Positions 1-36,496 of a stretch of 45,317 bases of DNA are shown here, in pieces. The position numbers and the translations under genes are program-made. Source of the stretch: a virus; IMG/VR virus record IMGVR_UViG_3300021976_000031, positions 1-45,317 of that record. One strand, given 5' to 3'. Position 1 is the first letter of the stretch. Each line of letters begins with the position of its first letter. The notes below the pieces were generated by a model. It did no database searches and was not told the DNA's origin. It worked only from the letters and a program-made list of their open reading frames with translations.

Positions 1-90
1 GTGTGTGCGAACGGTCATGTGTGTGTGCCCCTAGGTCGGTACATGCGTGTGTGTAGGAACAACGTATGCGATAGGTGTTGGCATAGGTGG

Positions 91-107
91 CGTAGACACT
101 GTCTACG
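91..107. repeat. 17-bp palindrome
   Basis: Arms CGTAGACA and TGTCTACG are perfect inverted repeats around a single central C. The form is typical of a dimeric repressor or activator binding site. No neighbouring promoter could be identified. Confidence 0.5.
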
Positions 108-164
108 TGAGTATCGTTATAGACTCGTTAGCTACCGTATGTGACAGGCTAACAAGGTTTAGTT

Positions 165-451
165 GTTGCTATTGGCAACGATACATACATGCATGAGGCA
201 ACGTTCAGATGGTTGCTTGAGTCAACGATCAGATCTATATACGTGCCTTATGCAACGACTTAGTTGCCAATAGCAAACACCTTGTTGCCTCTAGCAACAA
301 CACACCTTTGGTTGACCTTGGCAACGATTACGCGTGCTATAGGCAACTGTTGCTAAGGGCAACCGATAATGTACGTTATCGGTCGTGTGATAGGGGCCTT
401 TGGCAACGAGATTAGATGCCGAGGGCAATCAACCTTGTTGCACCTGGCAAC
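165..451. repeat. Iteron-like array of GTTGC-N5-GCAAC inverted repeats
   Basis: Perfect copies of GTTGC-N5-GCAAC occur at 165-179, 284-298, 349-363 and 437-451. Copies with one mismatch occur at 212-226, 263-277 and 311-325. Degenerate copies that keep GCAAC and TGC in the right place occur at 188-202, 242-256 and 333-347, and a weaker one at 393-407. The arm spacing is always 5 bp while the spacer sequence varies. Successive copies in the left half start 21-30 bp apart, roughly two to three helical turns. The arrangement is that of a multi-site array for a dimeric DNA-binding protein, as in iteron origins or centromere-like sites. The binding protein is not identified. Confidence 0.75.
362..383. 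repeat. Inverted repeat ACCGATAA-N6-TTATCGGT
   Basis: Eight-base arms ACCGATAA and TTATCGGT flank a 6-bp centre (TGTACG) that is itself nearly palindromic. It starts inside the iteron-like unit at 349-363 and could be an operator or part of an origin. Confidence 0.5.
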
Positions 452-510
452 TATCGAACACACCTTCGACTACAAAGAAAATTCGGACCCGGGGGGTCGC
501 GGCGCGCCCT

Positions 511-772: not shown

Positions 773-1106
773 CTATATCCCGTACCATTTTCTAGGCGTG
801 TTTCCGCAGGTCACGGGCCACTTCTGGCATTTAGCGGCTTTCCAACGGCCTAGTTGACCCCCCTCGGTTTAGATAGCCTCACAGCACTGTCAGCACCGTA
901 CGTTTAGTAGTCACTCTCTGTGTAGTGACACCTCTTCCCTTCTCCCCCTTTTTTGTCCCTAGTAAGCGGTCTCGGTTATTAAATACGATTTCGACCCCAA
1001 AGGTGCCCCGTGACCTGCGAAGATGTCCGAAAAAACCCGGTGCGGGTTATTGCGACGTAAATACCCAGGCAGCCCGGCTTAATCGTAAAACCACGACTGA
1101 CTGACA

Positions 1107-1336: not shown

Positions 1337-1834
1337 TTACGAGGCGGTGACCTTATCTGCGAGGAATGGCGCCAGGGGAGCGCCGTGATCTTCAAAGACT
1401 TGCTCAACTTCTTCCAAAAGCACGTCGGCGATGGCGTACTTTGGACTGCGCTTAGTGCCCTGCTGGGTGCGCATTCCCTCCCGATGAGCCCGCCTGCATA
1501 GGAGGCCACGGCACCCCATGGCGTAGCTAGAGCGCGAACCGTGCTGGCTGTACCCGTCCTGGCCGACCTCACTGATGATGTGGTCGATCATGCGCTGACG
1601 AATCAAGTCCCGGGCCTGCATGATGTAGGCGTCCACGCCATCAAGAGGCATGCAGTCCTGCACGTCGTCCTCTCGCTCGAATATGGCGAAGTGCAGGCTC
1701 TGGTCGGCGTCCCAGACGATCTCGAACTTGGTATAGTTGCAGGCCAGGCGGATGATGTCGTCTGCATCCTGCGCGAGCTTGGCGTGCCGTACCGAGAGTT
1801 CGCCAAGCAGGGTGTGACTGAAACTTTTATCCAT
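1337..1834 (-). CDS. Unknown protein with an HG-Y-GCR-C motif
   Basis: This is a 165-residue protein I do not recognise by function. It is the last gene of the leftward replication operon. The ATG at 1834 was chosen because it overlaps the stop of the upstream helicase-like gene by 8 bases, the usual spacing in this operon; an in-frame ATG at 1918 would embed 28 extra low-complexity residues inside that gene. The Shine-Dalgarno match is weak. The N-terminal half is acidic and probably alpha/beta. Around residues 95-118 it carries QHGSRSSYAMGCRGLLCRRA, which resembles a HG-T-Y-GCRC-C motif I recall in small actinobacterial and phage proteins of unknown function. The two cysteines and nearby histidines could bind metal. 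Operon position suggests a role in replication, but this is inference. Confidence 0.7.
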   Translation of the reverse strand: MDKSFSHTLLGELSVRHAKLAQDADDIIRLACNYTKFEIVWDADQSLHFAIFEREDDVQDCMPLDGVDAYIMQARDLIRQRMIDHIISEVGQDGYSQHGSRSSYAMGCRGLLCRRAHREGMRTQQGTKRSPKYAIADVLLEEVEQVFEDHGAPLAPFLADKVTAS

Positions 1835-3884
1835 GCTGCACACTCTGGTAACCTGTGGGGGGCTTGCCACGCTTGCCTGTGACAATCTTGAAGGGCTCAA
1901 TGTAGTCGGCACGCTCAAGCTCCTTGATTGCCTCGTTAATTTCCTTGGTCGACATCTTGGCTCTCATCGCTGCGTTGATCTGTGAGCGGGTAGGACCTCT
2001 GCCGAGTTCCTTCTCCTTGCGCCGGATGTAGTTCAGGAGGCGCGTGATCTGATCCTCGCCTTGCGAGCGCCCGATCTGTGCGCCGACGAGCCTGAAGTTC
2101 GCGAGGATGTACGGGTGGAGCTTCTCGACGAACTCAACGTCACGCTCGTCCACCCAGCTCGCGCGTCGGTTGACTGCATGGCACAGCATGAGCTTCTTGT
2201 AGTGGATCTCGAGCCGGGCGATCATGTCGTTGTCTGATGCTTGGATCATCAGGTCTACCGGCTCGAAGAAGTCTCTGAATGCACCTCGTGCATCAGCCGT
2301 CACGTCGAGAATAACCGGTGGGTCGTTCGGGTTCTTCCTCTGCGAGGCGATCGCGATTCCTGACAGGGTATTGAGCGCGCTCTGTAGACTGATCTGCGCA
2401 CCGCCGAAATAGTCACCGCGAGGCTTCTTCGGGCCGGACACGTAAAGCCAGCGGTTCAGGTAACCAGACGCCTGGTCTTGCGTGTCTAGCAGCTTGCGGA
2501 GTGCCCTCGGCTGGCTGGAAGTAGAGAACACCGCGAAGGCGTTCTCAGCTACCTTGCGCCCGTGTGTCTGACTGGTGTTTGAGATGTGAGGCTTGCCGTC
2601 GATGAAGTCCATAATCTTACCCTTGAGCGTGGACCCCTGGATGGACGACTTCGCCAGCAGTGTCGAAAGCTCGCTGAACTCGACGTAGCCCTTGATCGGC
2701 ACCCCGTTAGGCATGCCCTTGATCTGGCTGCCGAACTCTCCGATCAGCGCTTCGCCAGATGCCACCTCGCCGACGATACGAGCGCCCTCGACCACGATGC
2801 CCAAGTTGTTCTCAGGCATCGCGTAGCCGATCGCCTTGGTGACGTAGTTCTGTGCGGTCGACTTGCCTGAGCCTGTCTTGCCGAGATAGCAGATTGGCAA
2901 GTTTGCCATGACCGGTCGGTCGCCGCCCATCACCACATCCCTGCCCGCCGCCAGGCCAAGCAGGAGTAGCCCGCTGAACAGGTGATACTCCTCCGGACTG
3001 TAGTCGTAACTAGTCGCATCGCACCACTGGTAGAGGAAAGTCTCCTCGTAGCCTGCTAGCGCTTCCCGCCAGGCGAAGGTTGGGATCGCAGCGTCCGAGT
3101 CAAGCTCTGGGTCATACGCATCGACCTCTGGGTCAATACTGATGACAGGTGCGAGATCTTCATCAAGATCCGGAGGTACGCCCGTTGCGAGCGGAACAAA
3201 GCCGAGCGGTGCGGGCGGCGGCACAAGATGCAGTGGTCTGGGTGCGGTCCCATCCTCCAGCGCTGTGTCACCAGTAGGCCCTGGCGCAGCACTAGGGGCT
3301 GGCGCAAGAATCGGAGGGGGTGCAACAGGTGTAGATAGAACGACCGGCGGTACGAGGTCATAACCGCCTCCAATCTTCTCTTTGAACGAATAGCCCAGAT
3401 CTTCCCCCATGGCTCGCCTGAGCTTATGGAACATGGCCCCATCTTTGTATCCGGGAACCGGGAACCCGTGGTGAAATGCAGCGATGTCGTATCCATCGCC
3501 ACCCTGCGCGCAAGGTCCACAGTACCAAGCGTTTTTCTCTGTGTTAGCCCAGGCTGAGGGGACATTATCTCGATGACCTGGGATTGGACAAGAGATTTTG
3601 ATTCCTTCAGTTCTGCGATCATTCACAGAAGGTGTCATCTTGCCACACCAGCGGTTATACGCTTCGATGATGCCGACAGCATCGAGGATTCTGTCCAGTT
3701 CCAGGTCCTCTTCCGTCTTTATTGACGGTGAGTCTGTGTCCGGGATGAGTGCAGGATCGAACTGTGGCATAGGCGCGGATGGTGGAGCTTGAACACCTGC
3801 CTCCGCTGCCAGAGCAGCTCGCTTGGCATTCTCTTCTTCCTGCATACGACGCGCTTTAGCAAGAAGGTCACTTACCATGCCCAT
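1827..3884 (-). CDS. Primase-helicase-like protein: zinc finger plus P-loop ATPase
   Basis: A 685-residue protein. Near the N-terminus a CHC2-like zinc finger is visible (C99, H104, C122, C125), as used by primases to contact single-stranded template. A Pro/Ala/Asp-rich linker spans about 180-265. A P-loop ATPase module follows, with Walker A GKTGSGKS at 335-342 and a Walker B-like VEFSEL at about 401-406. It resembles DUF3987-type and primase-helicase ATPases of phages. The C-terminal 100 residues look like a winged-helix region. No primase catalytic core is present; that activity is encoded by the gene at 4136-4975, two genes upstream. The protein probably unwinds DNA and positions the separate primase at the fork. 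The start at 3884 overlaps the upstream stop by 17 bases. Confidence 0.8.
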   Translation of the reverse strand: MGMVSDLLAKARRMQEEENAKRAALAAEAGVQAPPSAPMPQFDPALIPDTDSPSIKTEEDLELDRILDAVGIIEAYNRWCGKMTPSVNDRRTEGIKISCPIPGHRDNVPSAWANTEKNAWYCGPCAQGGDGYDIAAFHHGFPVPGYKDGAMFHKLRRAMGEDLGYSFKEKIGGGYDLVPPVVLSTPVAPPPILAPAPSAAPGPTGDTALEDGTAPRPLHLVPPPAPLGFVPLATGVPPDLDEDLAPVISIDPEVDAYDPELDSDAAIPTFAWREALAGYEETFLYQWCDATSYDYSPEEYHLFSGLLLLGLAAGRDVVMGGDRPVMANLPICYLGKTGSGKSTAQNYVTKAIGYAMPENNLGIVVEGARIVGEVASGEALIGEFGSQIKGMPNGVPIKGYVEFSELSTLLAKSSIQGSTLKGKIMDFIDGKPHISNTSQTHGRKVAENAFAVFSTSSQPRALRKLLDTQDQASGYLNRWLYVSGPKKPRGDYFGGAQISLQSALNTLSGIAIASQRKNPNDPPVILDVTADARGAFRDFFEPVDLMIQASDNDMIARLEIHYKKLMLCHAVNRRASWVDERDVEFVEKLHPYILANFRLVGAQIGRSQGEDQITRLLNYIRRKEKELGRGPTRSQINAAMRAKMSTKEINEAIKELERADYIEPFKIVTGKRGKPPTGYQSVQHG

Positions 3885-4143
3885 CCCCCAGATTCTTGAT
3901 GGCTTGTTCGGCGTCAGGTACGACGCGAGCGAACCAACTACTAAAGCAACTCAGGTGCATCCTGAGGATCACTGGGGCGAATCGCCATTCCCAGGACTTA
4001 TGCCTCTTCTTGATTCGCTTATCGCATTCGACGCATCGTCCGCCAGAGCTGTTGAGTTGGATCGCAAGAGACTGATTTTCCACTCCCTCCCGCTCACGAT
4101 CCATGAGCTCTTCGATCAACTCATCGAAGCTCTTCTTAATCAC
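3868..4143 (-). CDS. Small Cys/His protein in the replication operon
   Basis: A 91-residue protein encoded between the primase and helicase-like genes, overlapping the former by 8 bases and the latter by 17, which indicates translational coupling. The N-terminal third is charged and helical. The middle shows C-x2-C (CVECDKR) and H-x3-C (HLSC) pairs, a plausible single zinc-binding site. I do not recognise a named family. Its size, metal ligands and tight coupling suggest an accessory subunit or bridging factor for the primase-helicase pair; this is inference. Confidence 0.7.
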   Translation of the reverse strand: MIKKSFDELIEELMDREREGVENQSLAIQLNSSGGRCVECDKRIKKRHKSWEWRFAPVILRMHLSCFSSWFARVVPDAEQAIKNLGDGHGK

Positions 4144-4975
4144 GGAACGGGTCTCCCATCTCGAGCACCCGCGCCTGGTCTGCGTGTGGCCGCAGCTCGG
4201 TCATCCTGCCCCCCATATCGATAAAGAATGTCGGATCAGTGGTCTTGCGATTCCGGCCCAGAGGTAGACGCATGAGGTTCCCCAGATCTTTCCCCTCGAG
4301 TGTGTCCTGCTTCGGGAACACCTCGATCTGGAAGTTTCGATACCCACCTGTGGGGTCATCGTTCACGTGCTTGAAGAAGTTATCGCCACGGCTTGGGATA
4401 AACTCCCCCGTGGCGTCGAGTGCAATCTTGGCGACTTCCCTTACTTCAACTGCCGGAAGCGGGCCGGTGAAGCCGTAGACGTGCATTCCCTTACCGCCCG
4501 TGTAAGCGACAGCGCAGGGGATCTGAAGATTCTTCGTGATCACCTTGGCAAGCTTGCTAGTGATCATCTTCATCTGGTACTTGTACCAGTTTCGTGCCGG
4601 GTGCGCCCGGTCACGCCACTCGTCACGGGGAGCGCCCTCGTAGATCTGCCAGTTCGGGTGCGTGTCATCCTTCAGATTAAAGGAGACCCACGTTCCGACC
4701 TTCTCGAGGTCGATATCGAACGCGAACAGCTTGCACGTGCCGTCCTGGCCGAGCATGTAGTGACCGAAGGTGCGCTCGCCGGTCAGGTGCTGCTGGAGGT
4801 GAGTCATCTTGAAGCCGACAGGCCCATAGGGTGCCAGCTTATTACTACCTCTCTCGGCGTCGATCTCCGCAAGGCGAGTGTCGGGGCAGTAACTGCCATC
4901 ATCGAACTGAATCGCCTTGACATCTCGCCTTGTGATGAACTTCTTGGCGAGTTGAATAGCGAGATCTTCTGCCAT
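4136..4975 (-). CDS. Archaeo-eukaryotic-type primase (AEP / prim-pol domain)
   Basis: A 279-residue stand-alone catalytic primase. The three signature motifs of the AEP superfamily are visible: FAFDID with catalytic aspartates D87 and D89, YTGGKGMHVY with H165, and a candidate third acidic position in FQIEVFPKQ (E218), followed by NLMRLPLG. The arrangement resembles AEP domains found in TOTE-type and phage primase-helicase proteins, where the domain is often fused to a helicase. Here it is an independent gene at the head of the operon. It should synthesise primers on the single-stranded template, and some relatives also act as DNA polymerases. The first ATG at 4975 follows the divergent promoter region and has CAGGAG a few bases upstream. 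Confidence 0.85.
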   Translation of the reverse strand: MAEDLAIQLAKKFITRRDVKAIQFDDGSYCPDTRLAEIDAERGSNKLAPYGPVGFKMTHLQQHLTGERTFGHYMLGQDGTCKLFAFDIDLEKVGTWVSFNLKDDTHPNWQIYEGAPRDEWRDRAHPARNWYKYQMKMITSKLAKVITKNLQIPCAVAYTGGKGMHVYGFTGPLPAVEVREVAKIALDATGEFIPSRGDNFFKHVNDDPTGGYRNFQIEVFPKQDTLEGKDLGNLMRLPLGRNRKTTDPTFFIDMGGRMTELRPHADQARVLEMGDPFRD

Positions 4976-5204: not shown

Positions 5205-6623
5205 TTGCTTTCCACCGGTCCGGTCACCGTGTACCGTTACCTCTACGCCCGTGTACGCCTAGAGATATCGGATACTTCTATGGAGCGAGTCTGGTTTCGC
5301 GACGCTAACCGAATCGCCGGTGAGATTGGCGAGGTAGGTCACCTCTATGTGACCTGGAATCGCATTGAGATGACCAAGTCCAAGACCGACCCAAAGGCTT
5401 TCGGTAACCTGCACTGGGGTTCTAGCGCGAAGTGGCAGGCCTTAGTAATTGGTCAGGGAAGTGCTATCCACGTCGATGCCACTCATGGGCTTGACGAGCC
5501 TCGTGCCGTATACCCCGTGTGGGAGTATGGCGAGGAGTGGAGTATTCTCGAGGAGCTTGCCTCGAATCCGATCGGACTGAATGAAGAGGTCTGCAATGAC
5601 CCAGTGATTGACACGGCCTGGCGGCCGGTATTTGGCCAGGAGAACGTCATCGTCATCACGGGTCTTCCGAACTTTTCTACTGGCGTCGGCAAGTCGATCG
5701 TGCGACGTCTGAATGAGTTTCAGAACGACTTCCCCGAGTGCTGTGTGTTCATCGACGGCAGTTACTCGTACAACGTCCTGTATGGCATGAGCTTCAAGGC
5801 AGGCAACATTGATGCCTTGCACCTCGCCAAGGATAACCAGATCATGCTCCCCTCGGGACGCATTGTAAACAAGCATTCATTCCCACAGCACCAGAAATGG
5901 ATCCATCTGCTGGGCGTGAGCATTCCTGACCTCAACGAACAGGGCAAGAGAGTCAGGTATAACATGAAGTCCGCTCTCTGGGCGGCCGAGAACTTCAGCA
6001 AGGACGTCGTGTTCAAGACGCGACAGGGGTCTAATACTGTTGACCCGAACGCGCTGGTTCACGTACCCGAGCAAGGCAGCAATGTACTTCCAGCGGGTCA
6101 GCCGGGCGACAAGGTAAACTGCGACACGTGCTCACTGGCTCTCAGGTGTAAGGTATACCGCCTAGGTTCGGTGTGCACGCTGCCGAAGACCGAGGCGAAG
6201 GACCTCGCCAGGATGTTCGGAACTCGTAATGCTGATGACATCGTGGATGCGCTAGGTAACCTCGTCGGCCGCCAAGCTAAGCGAGTTGAGCGGGGCATGG
6301 CGGATGAAGAAGTCCTGGGGATTCTGGATCCCGAGGTCAGCAAGCAACTCAATTCAGTCATCGATAATGGGATCAAACTTGCGAAACTCGTCGACCCATC
6401 GCGGGCCGGGGGCACCAAGGTGCAGGTCAACGTCGGGCAAGGCTCAGCGAGCGCGACGCAAGTCCAGATGGTCAATCCTAACCAGATGGTTGGGCAGATT
6501 GTTCGGGAGATCCAGCAGCGTACGGGCATCCCCGCAGCACAGATCACCCAAGAAATGATCATGCAGCAGCTCGCGCTCATGACTGGCTCGCAGCAGGTAG
6601 TCGCAGGAGAGGTCATGCCATGA
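5205..6623 (+). CDS. Terminase small-subunit-like protein with a large N-terminal domain
   Basis: Up to 472 residues, first gene of the rightward operon and separated from the large terminase by only one small gene. The C-terminal part has a four-cysteine cluster (CDTC, RCKV and VCTLP, residues about 306-325). A helical region with ILDPEVSKQLNS and KLAKLVDPS follows, then a tail rich in Asn, Gln and Val. This resembles small-terminase-like regions I recall in actinophages. The N-terminal 280 residues are an alpha/beta domain of unknown role, with FIDGSYSY and MLPSGRIV motifs; a TIM-barrel related to tRNA-guanine transglycosylases is possible but unproven. The start is uncertain: TTG at 5205, GTG at 5229 and ATG at 5280 all lack a well-placed ribosome binding site. 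Confidence 0.55.
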   Translation: MLSTGPVTVYRYLYARVRLEISDTSMERVWFRDANRIAGEIGEVGHLYVTWNRIEMTKSKTDPKAFGNLHWGSSAKWQALVIGQGSAIHVDATHGLDEPRAVYPVWEYGEEWSILEELASNPIGLNEEVCNDPVIDTAWRPVFGQENVIVITGLPNFSTGVGKSIVRRLNEFQNDFPECCVFIDGSYSYNVLYGMSFKAGNIDALHLAKDNQIMLPSGRIVNKHSFPQHQKWIHLLGVSIPDLNEQGKRVRYNMKSALWAAENFSKDVVFKTRQGSNTVDPNALVHVPEQGSNVLPAGQPGDKVNCDTCSLALRCKVYRLGSVCTLPKTEAKDLARMFGTRNADDIVDALGNLVGRQAKRVERGMADEEVLGILDPEVSKQLNSVIDNGIKLAKLVDPSRAGGTKVQVNVGQGSASATQVQMVNPNQMVGQIVREIQQRTGIPAAQITQEMIMQQLALMTGSQQVVAGEVMP

Positions 6624-6793
6624 TAGACATTCTTGTTGCGCCGTGGCGCGTAGGTCACCATCTGGGTCGTACTGTGTACGCCATGGTAAATCCAGAGCCA
6701 TCAGACGATGACATCTTTATCGGCATCTTTGACGGTATGGACGCGGCAGCTCACGTGGTTGAGATTCACAACCGAGGGCTCGGCTTGCTGTGA
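6620..6793 (+). CDS. Small conserved-looking protein between terminase genes
   Basis: A 57-residue gene. Its ATG overlaps the stop of the upstream gene (ATGA at 6620) and its stop overlaps the GTG start of the large terminase (GTGA at 6790), so the three are translationally coupled. The protein begins MIDILVAPWRVGHHLGRTVY and continues with an acidic stretch (EPSDDDIFIGIF) and a helical end (AAHVVEIHNR). Small proteins with an N-terminal APWR-G-H-GRT pattern occur in many actinophages as I recall; no function is known to me. Confidence 0.8.
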   Translation: MIDILVAPWRVGHHLGRTVYAMVNPEPSDDDIFIGIFDGMDAAAHVVEIHNRGLGLL

Positions 6794-8643
6794 GTCAACC
6801 GATGTTCGATCCGGCCGCGATCGCCAGAAACGTCAAGTTCCTCCAGGATTATCCCTGGTTCCAGGAGCGTCCGGCGAGCATCACTGAGTTCCTCGGCCCC
6901 CTCTACCTGAATATTGAGAAGGGTGTGCGGCCGGGCATCAAGGAAGAACTGCTCAAGATTTTCGGCCCAGAACCGAACCCTCACCGCGTAGCGGTGTTCG
7001 AAGAGGCCATGTTTACTGGTGCCATCGGCATCGGCAAGACCACTATGGCCTCGATTGTCATCCCATACATGGTCCACCACACTTTGTGCCTTAAGGATCC
7101 GCAAGACTACTATGAGCTCCTTCCAGGGTCGCGTATTGCTTTCATGCAGATGTCAACGTCGGACTCGCAGGCGAAGGAGACTCTTTTTGGTGATATCAAG
7201 GCGCGCATTCAGTACTCGCCTTGGTTCATGAACGCCTGGATGTATGACCCGAACTTCAAGAATCAGCTCAGGTTCCCGAAGGAGATCTGGGTCCTCCCTG
7301 GCAATAGCCAGGAGACCACTTTCGAGGGTTACAACATCCTGGGCGGCATCCTGGATGAGGCTGATTCACACAAGGTGACCGAAGAGAAGGACTACGCCGA
7401 GCAGGGCTTCACCACCATCGACTCGCGTATCCGTTCTCGGTTCCAAGATCGCGGCTTCCTGATGGTCGTCGGCCAGATGAAGAAGGCTGACGGCTTTGCG
7501 GCGAAGAAGTACGCCGAAATGCAGAAGAACGAAAAGGCTCACACAGTCCGAATGGCGATCTGGGAGTCGCTGGGCTGGCGTAAGTTCCTTCTCCCGACCG
7601 GCGAGCGCAATAGCTTCTTCTACGACACGCACCGCAAGGTTGTCGTGCCAAAGGAAGCTGTCCCGCTGCTGAAGACCACCGATTATCTGATCGAGATCCC
7701 GGTGGTCTACCAGAAGCCGTTCGAGAACGCGCCCGAGAAGGCGCTTCGTGACTTGGCTGGCATCCCGCCTGCGATCGATGACCCCTTTATCTCGCTGGTG
7801 GATCGCATCACTGACTGCCAGGACAGATGGGTCGAGATCTTTGGACAGGAGACCCCGGTTGACCAAAATCCGACTCGACCTCAGTTCTTTGACTGGTTCA
7901 AAGGCAAGGACGGACTCAAGCGAGCCCTCGCCATCGACACCGCTATCTCAGGTGATGGCGACGCGCTCGGCATTGCGATGGGGCACGTCCGAGAAGTTAA
8001 AGAGATTGACGGGGAACTTAAGCCCTTCATTGTCTTTGATTGCCTCATGCGCATCAAGGCTGCTCCTGGAACAGAGATCATGCTCGCAGATGTCCGACAG
8101 ATCGTCTACCACTGCACCGACCTCGGATTCAAGATCAAGACCATCACTATGGATGGGTTTCAGTCAACTGACTCGCTCCAGCAGTTCCGCAAGAGACATT
8201 ATCAGGCTGACTACCTTTCTGTCGACCGTAACAAGCTCCCGTACGAGGACCTTCGAGATGCGATCTACGAGGGGCGCATGGCTTTCCCGCGCTATCTCAC
8301 CAAGCTCCGCAAGGGCGAAGACGAGGCAGTCAACATCCCATTCAAGGAGCTCTCGGAGCTTACGGATACTGGAAAGAAGATCGATCACCCGCCGTCAGGC
8401 AGTAAAGATGTAGCAGATGCCATGGCGGCGGTCACATTCATGCTAATGGGTGACAGGAGCTTCAGGAAGGGAGTAGTGTCCGTCTCGTTCAACAGCGAAG
8501 ATAATCTTCAGCCAGTAGGTGCGGCTGGACCAGGCGACGCTCTCATGCATCCTGCACTCGGCGGTTTTGGTACCTTGATGGCTCCGATCCCCCCGTCCCA
8601 AGATGTACTCGGCTTCTTCCCTGTTCCCCAAGCGCCAAAATAG
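6790..8643 (+). CDS. Terminase, large subunit
   Basis: A 617-residue motor-nuclease that cuts concatemeric DNA and pumps it into the prohead through the portal. The ATPase half carries Walker A GAIGIGKTT (77-85) and Walker B ILDEAD (187-192). The nuclease half shows the RNase H-fold acidic residues: D383 in AIDTA, D455 in ITMDGF, and D540 or D543 in SKDVADAM. Length and motif order fit a complete enzyme. The start is GTG, overlapping the previous stop. Confidence 0.92.
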   Translation: MSQPMFDPAAIARNVKFLQDYPWFQERPASITEFLGPLYLNIEKGVRPGIKEELLKIFGPEPNPHRVAVFEEAMFTGAIGIGKTTMASIVIPYMVHHTLCLKDPQDYYELLPGSRIAFMQMSTSDSQAKETLFGDIKARIQYSPWFMNAWMYDPNFKNQLRFPKEIWVLPGNSQETTFEGYNILGGILDEADSHKVTEEKDYAEQGFTTIDSRIRSRFQDRGFLMVVGQMKKADGFAAKKYAEMQKNEKAHTVRMAIWESLGWRKFLLPTGERNSFFYDTHRKVVVPKEAVPLLKTTDYLIEIPVVYQKPFENAPEKALRDLAGIPPAIDDPFISLVDRITDCQDRWVEIFGQETPVDQNPTRPQFFDWFKGKDGLKRALAIDTAISGDGDALGIAMGHVREVKEIDGELKPFIVFDCLMRIKAAPGTEIMLADVRQIVYHCTDLGFKIKTITMDGFQSTDSLQQFRKRHYQADYLSVDRNKLPYEDLRDAIYEGRMAFPRYLTKLRKGEDEAVNIPFKELSELTDTGKKIDHPPSGSKDVADAMAAVTFMLMGDRSFRKGVVSVSFNSEDNLQPVGAAGPGDALMHPALGGFGTLMAPIPPSQDVLGFFPVPQAPK

Positions 8644-8656
8644 AAGGGATCTTGGG

Positions 8657-10345
8657 GTGGCAGACTTTGTCATTACCGACCGTAGAGGTCGCGTAAAGGA
8701 GACCAGAGCCTTCAAGAAGGCCAAGCCTCCGCAGATGGGCGAGAAGTACGGCAACTGGTCTGGCGACTCCAATCTGGTAACACAGTTCCCAGGTGGCGGG
8801 GCGATGGTCTTCAACTTGGACCGGCTCACGCTCCAGGACTTCAGGTCGATGCGGGATCACTACCAGATCAACGCGTCCCTGTCGGTCCTCACGTTCATGC
8901 TGCATCAGCTGTCGTGGCATGTCGAGTCGGAAGAGAAGAAGATCGCGGTCACTTGTCAGGACATCCTCGAGGATGTCTGGACGCGCCTTGTGCGCGCCAA
9001 GTCGACGGCCTTCTGGGCTGGGCGCTCCCCGAATGTTCTCCAGTGGGAGAACAACAACATCAAGGGTCGCGTTGACCTGACCAAGATCAAGGACCTCATC
9101 CCGGAAGACTGTCAAGTCAACTGGAAGACTGTCGAGGGGGCGTCTTCGAAGAACGGCATCAAGCCGAAGCTCAAGATCTACGACGGCATCCGGCAGGTCG
9201 GCTGGCATGAGCCGATCCCCACGAAGGCGACGTACTGGTATCCCCTCCTGATGGAGAACGGGAACTACTACGGCAAGAAGATTCTGCGGTCTGCCTTCGT
9301 GCCGTGGTTCTTCTCGAACCTGATGCACCTCTACTCGAACAGGTACTACGAGCGCTTCGGTGAGCCGCTCCCGATCGGCCGTGCGCCTTTCGATGAGGAA
9401 GTCGACGTCGAGGGCAAGAAGGTTCGTGGCAACCAGCTCATGGGTGCCATCATGCAGCAGATCCGGAACCGCTCGGTAGCGGTGCTGCCGAACACTCGCA
9501 CCGCCGCCTCGATGAACGAGACGAACCCGCAGTTCGACTACCAGATTGAGTACCTCGAGTCTCAGATGCGAGGTGTCGACTTTGATCGATACATCACACG
9601 ACTTGACGAGGAAATTACTCTCGGACTATTTACGCCTCTGCTTGTTACTCGCACAGCGGATGTCGGCAGCTATAACCTGGGTGTCGGCCACATGCAGACG
9701 TATCAGTGGATGCTGAACGCGATCGCCATGGACTGGACGGAGTACATCAACAAGTACATCCTCGGTCCGATGGTCGACTTCAACTTCAGTGAGCGGGCGC
9801 CTCGTGCCAAGATCGTATTCCGCAAGCTCGGCGCAGAGTCTGCCGACACGATCCGGGCGATCGTCACGGCGCTCATCGGCAACGGCTCGATCAAGCCTGA
9901 CATCACCGAGCTCGGTGAAATGGCCGGTTTGACGCTGAAGGAGGTCCAGCAAGTCACCGCTGACCCCAATGCGGACCCGAACGCTGATCCTAACGCCGAT
10001 GACCCGGCAAAGCGTAGGCGCAGCGGCCCCCGTGGAACCGACGAACCACGGGCCACGACTAAGGACGTGACCGCACGTGTCCGCAAGCAAGCTGAAAAGG
10101 CTTTCAATGCCGGGGAGTTCGGGTCTGGGTTCACGCCTAGCTTCGGCTATGAGCGACGGCTTACGGAGAGTCTCAGCGCTGCTGGCGTTGATGACGCAGC
10201 CTCAGCGGTCAAGCGCCTCTACGGCCGACTCGGTTCGTGGACTGGTGAAGTAACCAAGATGACCGCATACAGCTCAGTCGACGGCTTCATGTCTGAGTTC
10301 GAGAAGGCGCTGGACTACCAGTTGGAGGAGCTGGTAGCGGCATGA
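8657..10345 (+). CDS. Portal protein
   Basis: A 562-residue protein, or 580 residues if the in-frame ATG at 8603 is used. I prefer GTG 8657 because AAGGGA lies 7 bases upstream and the gene then follows the terminase stop without a 41-base overlap. The product forms the dodecameric DNA channel at the capsid vertex. Features fitting a portal of the DUF935/Mu gp29-like type are the early INASLSVLTFMLHQ helix, the SNRYYERFGEPLPIGRAP segment and a long helical stem, placed directly after the terminase. The C-terminal part contains a short tandem NADP repeat (about residues 433-446) followed by a basic segment KRRRSGPR. The stop overlaps the next gene's ATG. Confidence 0.88.
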   Translation: MADFVITDRRGRVKETRAFKKAKPPQMGEKYGNWSGDSNLVTQFPGGGAMVFNLDRLTLQDFRSMRDHYQINASLSVLTFMLHQLSWHVESEEKKIAVTCQDILEDVWTRLVRAKSTAFWAGRSPNVLQWENNNIKGRVDLTKIKDLIPEDCQVNWKTVEGASSKNGIKPKLKIYDGIRQVGWHEPIPTKATYWYPLLMENGNYYGKKILRSAFVPWFFSNLMHLYSNRYYERFGEPLPIGRAPFDEEVDVEGKKVRGNQLMGAIMQQIRNRSVAVLPNTRTAASMNETNPQFDYQIEYLESQMRGVDFDRYITRLDEEITLGLFTPLLVTRTADVGSYNLGVGHMQTYQWMLNAIAMDWTEYINKYILGPMVDFNFSERAPRAKIVFRKLGAESADTIRAIVTALIGNGSIKPDITELGEMAGLTLKEVQQVTADPNADPNADPNADDPAKRRRSGPRGTDEPRATTKDVTARVRKQAEKAFNAGEFGSGFTPSFGYERRLTESLSAAGVDDAASAVKRLYGRLGSWTGEVTKMTAYSSVDGFMSEFEKALDYQLEELVAA

Positions 10346-36262: not shown

Positions 36263-36496
36263 CTACCTTGCCTTCATCTTTCCGCCCCACATGCCTACCT
36301 TGGAGCCGGTCTTGTTTGACCACTCGTCACAGTCGGGACGGACCGGACACTGCGAACAGACGACTTTACCTGGCGATTTGTTCTGCCCGCGATAGGGGAA
36401 GAAGATGTCCATCTCTTCGGGCACCATGTCATCGTCTTGAACCTTCATGCCGTCGGATCTCTTGGGCGCCATACCTGAACAGGCGGCGTCCTTCAT
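36263..36496 (-). CDS. WhiB-family transcription regulator
   Basis: A 77-residue protein with the hallmarks of WhiB: cysteines C6, C47, C50 and C56 (AACSGM and CSQCPVRPDC) for a 4Fe-4S cluster, FFP in between, and GMWGG at 68-72. WhiB proteins are confined to actinobacteria and their phages and bind the primary sigma factor. The upstream frame is open and reads EPW just before the ATG, a residue pattern typical of WhiB N-termini. The true start may therefore lie further upstream, though no ATG, GTG or TTG occurs in the nearest 18 codons. Confidence 0.92.
   Translation of the reverse strand: MKDAACSGMAPKRSDGMKVQDDDMVPEEMDIFFPYRGQNKSPGKVVCSQCPVRPDCDEWSNKTGSKVGMWGGKMKAR

Follow-up and report, generated by a model that had tools for sequence, protein, structure and literature searches.

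A palindromic lox/dif-like site within a dyad array marks a candidate genome-end control region in a group of actinophages

Introduction

Phage P1 carries the Cre-loxP system beside pac, with a symmetric-armed crossover site at the redundant end of the genome and a phage tyrosine recombinase that acts on it. In T7, arrays of short repeats flank the terminal repeat. For actinophages, the sections of Liu et al. 2015 drawn on here (PMC4563357) describe an extended stretch near the right terminus that is free of genes and contains several inverted repeats, and such inverted-repeat-rich gene-free regions are given for GordTnk2, Gmala1, GordDuk1, GTE7 and ReqiDocB7. The same sections assign pac-type ends of limited permutation to three phages, suggest a part in replication for a small XerC-like recombinase, and report that lysogens were not found.

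Here we describe an array of GTTGC-N5-GCAAC dyads that encloses a palindromic core at the left end of an actinophage contig. The locus resembles P1 Cre-loxP in its single, putative symmetric-armed crossover site and, in relatives, in the association of that site with a redundant end and a phage-encoded tyrosine recombinase. In contrast to P1, the protein is Xer-like, the conserved half-sites are 7 bp and the middle 6 bp long, the recombinase gene lies far from the site, and a dyad array surrounds the site in some lineages. The ATAA-N6-TTAT layout is shared with Xer/dif and with the single-recombinase XerA, XerH and XerS systems, whereas the phage site has two XerC-type halves, is phage-borne and, in several relatives, lies in terminal repeats. 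As in T7, short repeats are present in multiple copies at the ends of terminal-repeat phages, although the sequence in the window is different, the repeats are dyads and a putative recombination core is present.

The array lies at the same place and in the same phage family as the region treated in the above sections of Liu et al. (PMC4563357), where a small XerC-like recombinase is likewise noted but consensus, crossover site and function are not named. In the literature searched, we found no paper that names either the core or the GTTGC consensus. This fits the view of the first-pass annotation that no actinophage element with this consensus had been described, a view to be qualified by the unexplained inverted-repeat-rich regions already known there, as those sections attest (PMC4563357).

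We give an even chance to the reading that this is a genome-end control region, with a lox/dif-like core used by an Xer-like recombinase and dyads bound by a dimeric protein. The data suggest a site for closing or cutting the linear DNA of the virus, rather than a proven start of its copying. Such a region would offer a testable role both for the gene-free regions so far left unexplained and for the orphan 'integrases' in a large, apparently virulent actinophage group, and could explain how terminally redundant actinophage genomes are closed. It could also become the source of a small recombinase-site pair for use in actinobacteria.

Results

Gene layout and kinship

The window, i.e. the whole stretch of DNA analysed, is a 45,317-base IMG/VR virus record of topology class linear, and thus probably a fragment; the virus probably infects actinobacteria. 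Its left end holds a leftward operon encoding an AEP-type primase (4136-4975, minus strand; phrog_5362, PF22548), a helicase with a zinc finger and a probable C-terminal winged helix (1827-3884, minus strand; phrog_5311, E 1e-97, with no more than weak Pfam matches) and a small GCRGxLC-motif protein 3' of the helicase (1337-1918, minus strand; phrog_7062; these are ORF coordinates with an uncertain true start). Approximately 1.3 kb of gene-free DNA follow. Alignment with the relatives L005 and L006, which have the same gene start, places the start codon of the next leftward gene at 16-18 (minus strand), this gene being truncated by the left contig end. Packaging and head genes run rightward from 5205 onward, including a gene labelled terminase small subunit (5205-6623, plus strand; phrog_6902) and the terminase large subunit (6790-8643, plus strand; phrog_2).

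Counting the window, 16 of the 24 records searched have a homologue of the GCRGxLC-motif gene, and in most of the phage family the gene is located behind the helicase. At 472 residues, the product labelled as small terminase subunit is unusually long; it has a weak likeness to queuine tRNA-ribosyltransferases (phrog_887, E 1e-4), and a comparison with solved structures gave no match. A small WhiB-type regulator gene lies at 36263-36496 (minus strand; PF02467, E 1e-10).

The closest relatives are the contigs L005 and L006, with helicases 71% and 66% identical to that of the window. More distantly related are phages of Gordonia, Rhodococcus and Tsukamurella, ~72-84 kb in length and alike in gene order; the window phage is related to the CS/DF-type phages of these hosts. 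A search of phage records by DNA similarity with the window found nothing, and an Rfam scan returned two matches only, both far below the family gathering scores.

The dyad array

Twelve GTTGC-N5-GCAAC dyads lie within 165-451, starting at 165, 188, 212, 242, 263, 284, 311, 333, 349, 393, 415 and 437. Four are perfect, three have one mismatch and five have two, close to the four perfect, three single-mismatch and about four degenerate units counted in the first-pass annotation. In 1000 dinucleotide shuffles of window positions 1-500, the mean numbers of units with at most zero, one and two mismatches were 0.001, 0.024 and 0.33 (observed: 4, 7 and 12), and the maximum in any shuffle was three at up to two mismatches. 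The array is hence too regular for chance, as had been asserted. When spacers of 0-15 bp were compared, 5 bp was enriched and no other comparably so, bearing out the constant spacing earlier ascribed to the units. All four perfect copies in the 45-kb contig lie within 165-451. The gene-free setting of the array, downstream of the helicase and primase genes and next to an A+T tract, was likewise confirmed. Another of the earlier suggestions, a centromere-like site, was not supported in its ParB form: no ParB-type protein (PF02195) was detected in 10 records, which included several fragments.

In the window, L005 and L006 alike, repeats most often recur at a lag of 22 bp. This period and the adjoining helicase/primase operon count in favour of the main rival explanation, that of a replication origin: an initiator, perhaps the winged-helix C-terminus of the neighbouring helicase, would bind the dyads as iterons, and unwinding would take place in the A+T tract. 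Like iteron origins, the locus has sites in tandem, spaced by roughly two helical turns, in the vicinity of replication genes and an A+T tract; unlike them, it consists of dyads rather than one-sided iterons and is not universal in the phage family. An origin near the array is possible, but we regard the origin explanation of the array as doubtful, with ~300 bp separating the array from the A+T tract and further points against it given below.

Elements between the array and the helicase

The A+T-rich tract, identified from sequence at 725-771 as a possible unwinding element, has a counterpart at the corresponding position in nearly all relatives. A conserved box, TGACCTGCGG (804-813, minus strand), is part of an inverted repeat (805-827 / 997-1019), and a second box, TGACCTGCGA, is located at 1011-1020 (plus strand). 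The conservation in place of both tract and TGACCTGCGG boxes favours an origin. The boxes are often paired ~190-210 bp apart, between array and helicase, in most relatives.

The palindrome TGATAGTACTATCA occurs at 554-567 and 637-650, with a variant, TGATAGCGCTATCA, at 1107-1120; these three matches in the window compare with 0.04 expected. The TGATAGTACTATCA palindrome is also present in L005 and L006 and looks like an operator. A 64-bp direct repeat (511-574 / 594-657, 78% identical) contains one TGATAGTACTATCA palindrome per copy.

Conservation and distribution of the array

Both L005 and L006 carry the dyad array at the same place as the window, in answer to the earlier proposal to look for it in relatives. 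When the three are aligned, 69% of columns are invariant in the dyad arms, as against 40% in spacers, 43% in linkers and 38% in the remaining intergenic region. In contig G010, with a helicase ~33% identical, all 15 units with at most one mismatch lie at 6525-8976.

Dyad arrays enclose the core in the window group and G010, and arrays of other dyads do so in G012 and G011. The core is present with no dyad array in Jumbo, Gmala1, Camerico and G013-G017, while Woes and Monty have GTTGC arrays, no good core and no recombinase. Core and array are therefore separable, since each occurs without the other in some phages, and the units of Woes and Monty appear independent of recombination; the idea that GTTGC units are mere accessory sites of the recombinase was rejected on the same two phages. 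The array-less phages, called as recombinase carriers, count against the genome-end reading. They also count against an origin, as they share the replication genes but have no dyad array near the core.

Trees of the helicase and the small terminase subunit do not separate GTTGC-array phages from others, so neither protein is singled out as the binder. Helicase kinship fails to predict the arrays, which counts against an origin. The same dyad recurs in separate lineages, which prompts the question of its binding protein. The gene phrog_6708, close to the array, was discarded as an array-linked candidate, being present with or without arrays, and GTTGC matches in L118 were set aside as repetitive, probably coding sequence.

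In other phages, arrays of the near-identical dyad GTTGCA-N3-TGCAAC were observed beside (L026 2435-2630, L013 2793-2991, L014 4037-4230, L049 5093-5280) or inside (L015 2669-2773) genes weakly resembling winged-helix replication initiators. Their setting would suit an origin.

An operator array, through which a phage or host regulator would control the leftward operon from window position 18, would be consistent with the array lying ~150 bp upstream of that leftward gene and with single extra units in nearby intergenic stretches of G002 (32679, 34131) and G010. We consider it very unlikely, given that the Monty units lie >1 kb from the nearest leftward gene and that no promoter-like match was found in or just downstream of the array.

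The core site

Within the array, at 363-382, lies the lox/dif-like core CCGATAA-TGTACG-TTATCGG, in which 18 of 20 columns are invariant in the three phages. Two copies of the XerC half-site of actinobacterial dif, inverted relative to each other, flank its 6-bp asymmetric middle, a Xer/lox-type layout of inverted half-sites and short asymmetric middle that recurs in relatives. The first-pass annotation had missed this 20-bp palindrome, CCGATAATGTACGTTATCGG. Exact core arms are also found in L005, L006, Jumbo, Gmala1, ReqiDocB7, Perlina and Camerico, with about one core per genome in the phage family. Nine held-out records, none used in defining the site, contained it in seven cases, compared with ~0.7 matches expected by our own estimate from the information content of the pattern.

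The dif site of Frankia alni is CACGCCGATAATGCACATTATGTCAAGT (PMC3025954). The CCGATAA half-site equals its inner XerC half, and the 6-bp middle also fits (PMC3025954). Scanning for CCGATAA-N6-TTATGTCAAGT gave at least 119 stretches, mostly actinobacterial; Gordonia, Rhodococcus, Williamsia, Nocardia and Mycobacterium are among the matches listed. A chromosomal dif combines one XerC with one XerD half, whereas the second arm of the phage core is TTATCGG rather than TTATGTCAAGT. This palindromic XerC/XerC form, unlike standard dif, counts against the genome-end reading.

The identity of the half-site with the XerC arm of actinobacterial dif would also be expected if the core were an attachment site through which XerCD of the host integrates the phage at dif, as would the core middle of G010, TGCACA, which equals that of F. 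alni dif. Most phage core middles nonetheless differ from host dif middles, and the second arm is not of XerD type. In 19 mycolata genomes no helicase of the phage family, and hence no prophage of it, was found, in keeping with the absence of lysogens in the sections of Liu et al. drawn on here (PMC4563357). Integration at dif therefore seems highly improbable.

Terminal repeats

Direct terminal repeats were found in Woes (184 bp), Monty (191 bp), Kvothe (1172 bp) and Jumbo (370 bp), these four lengths agreeing with PMC5559632, and in Reynauld (362 bp), Trogglehumper (330 bp) and Camerico (316 bp). The core is located in both terminal repeats of Jumbo, Camerico and Trogglehumper, in the last as a GCATAA-armed variant. 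GTTGC units occupy positions 33, 55 and 77 within the terminal repeat of Monty, a spacing of 22 bp, and positions 33 and 101 within that of Woes. Units are similarly placed at the left ends of Chelms, PokyPuppy and Luker, here judged by position and not by repeat length. The window array thus carries both markers of its relatives' terminal repeats. Together with the arrays missing near the core in several relatives, units in terminal repeats point to a genome-end element; the Monty units in particular speak against an origin. The location at a physical end is seen for Monty, Woes, Jumbo, Trogglehumper and Camerico, and is presumed for the window phage.

In Monty and Woes the first unit lies 32 bp in from the left genome end, and short repeats particular to each lineage occur in most of the family's terminal repeats. 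Both observations, and the pac-type ends of limited permutation of GordTnk2, Gmala1 and GordDuk1 in the sections of Liu et al. drawn on here (PMC4563357), would be accommodated by a pac array only, with units binding the packaging enzyme and unrelated to the core. We consider this unlikely: dyads suggest a dimer and not a ring-shaped small terminase subunit, the small-subunit tree does not predict the arrays, and Woes has seven more units ~560 bp outside its terminal repeat.

The Xer-like recombinase

A Pfam search detected a tyrosine recombinase in G002, G010, G012, Jumbo, Gmala1, ReqiDocB7, Reynauld, Trogglehumper, Perlina, Mbo2 and Camerico, and found none in Woes, Monty, Kvothe, Austin, PokyPuppy, Luker, Chelms, GMA7 and TIN3. 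The eleven aligned proteins have the catalytic R-K-HxxR-H-Y residues in place, and the solved structures nearest to the G002 protein are XerC-like, XerA and XerD. The window fragment lacks a recombinase gene; from its kin G002, which encodes one, we infer that the window phage has an Xer-like recombinase. The relaxed site SSATAR-N6-YTATSS is present in 9 of 11 recombinase carriers and 1 of 9 non-carriers, the exception being Monty with a weaker match (Fisher one-sided p 0.0027, kinship ignored, the site having first been noticed in some of the same genomes and the non-carriers being largely one clade).

The constraint on arms and core, the core in terminal repeats and its co-occurrence with the recombinase count in favour of the genome-end control region. 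From these comparisons we infer that the core is recombined, and likewise a role for the GTTGC units. A single phage-encoded Xer-like tyrosine recombinase probably acts on the core, and would join the core copies in the two terminal repeats, so that the entering linear genome is circularised or multimers are resolved, as by Cre-lox in P1. The GTTGC-N5-GCAAC units are putative sites for a dimeric protein that may fold the end region in the service of recombination, packaging or both. More broadly, and with somewhat less than even confidence, we propose a widespread actinophage group with its own one-protein Xer/dif-like system, which has a palindromic site in the terminal repeats and fast-evolving dyad arrays in several lineages. 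The arrays would then make the end region a nucleoprotein machine that closes and packages the genome.

Reynauld and Mbo2, recombinase carriers without a site of the searched form, count against the genome-end reading. At the left end of Reynauld (L083), within the terminal repeat, a possible variant core, GGCGGATA-CAGCGG-TATTCGCC, was read by eye; it could account for the strict pattern missing a recombinase carrier.
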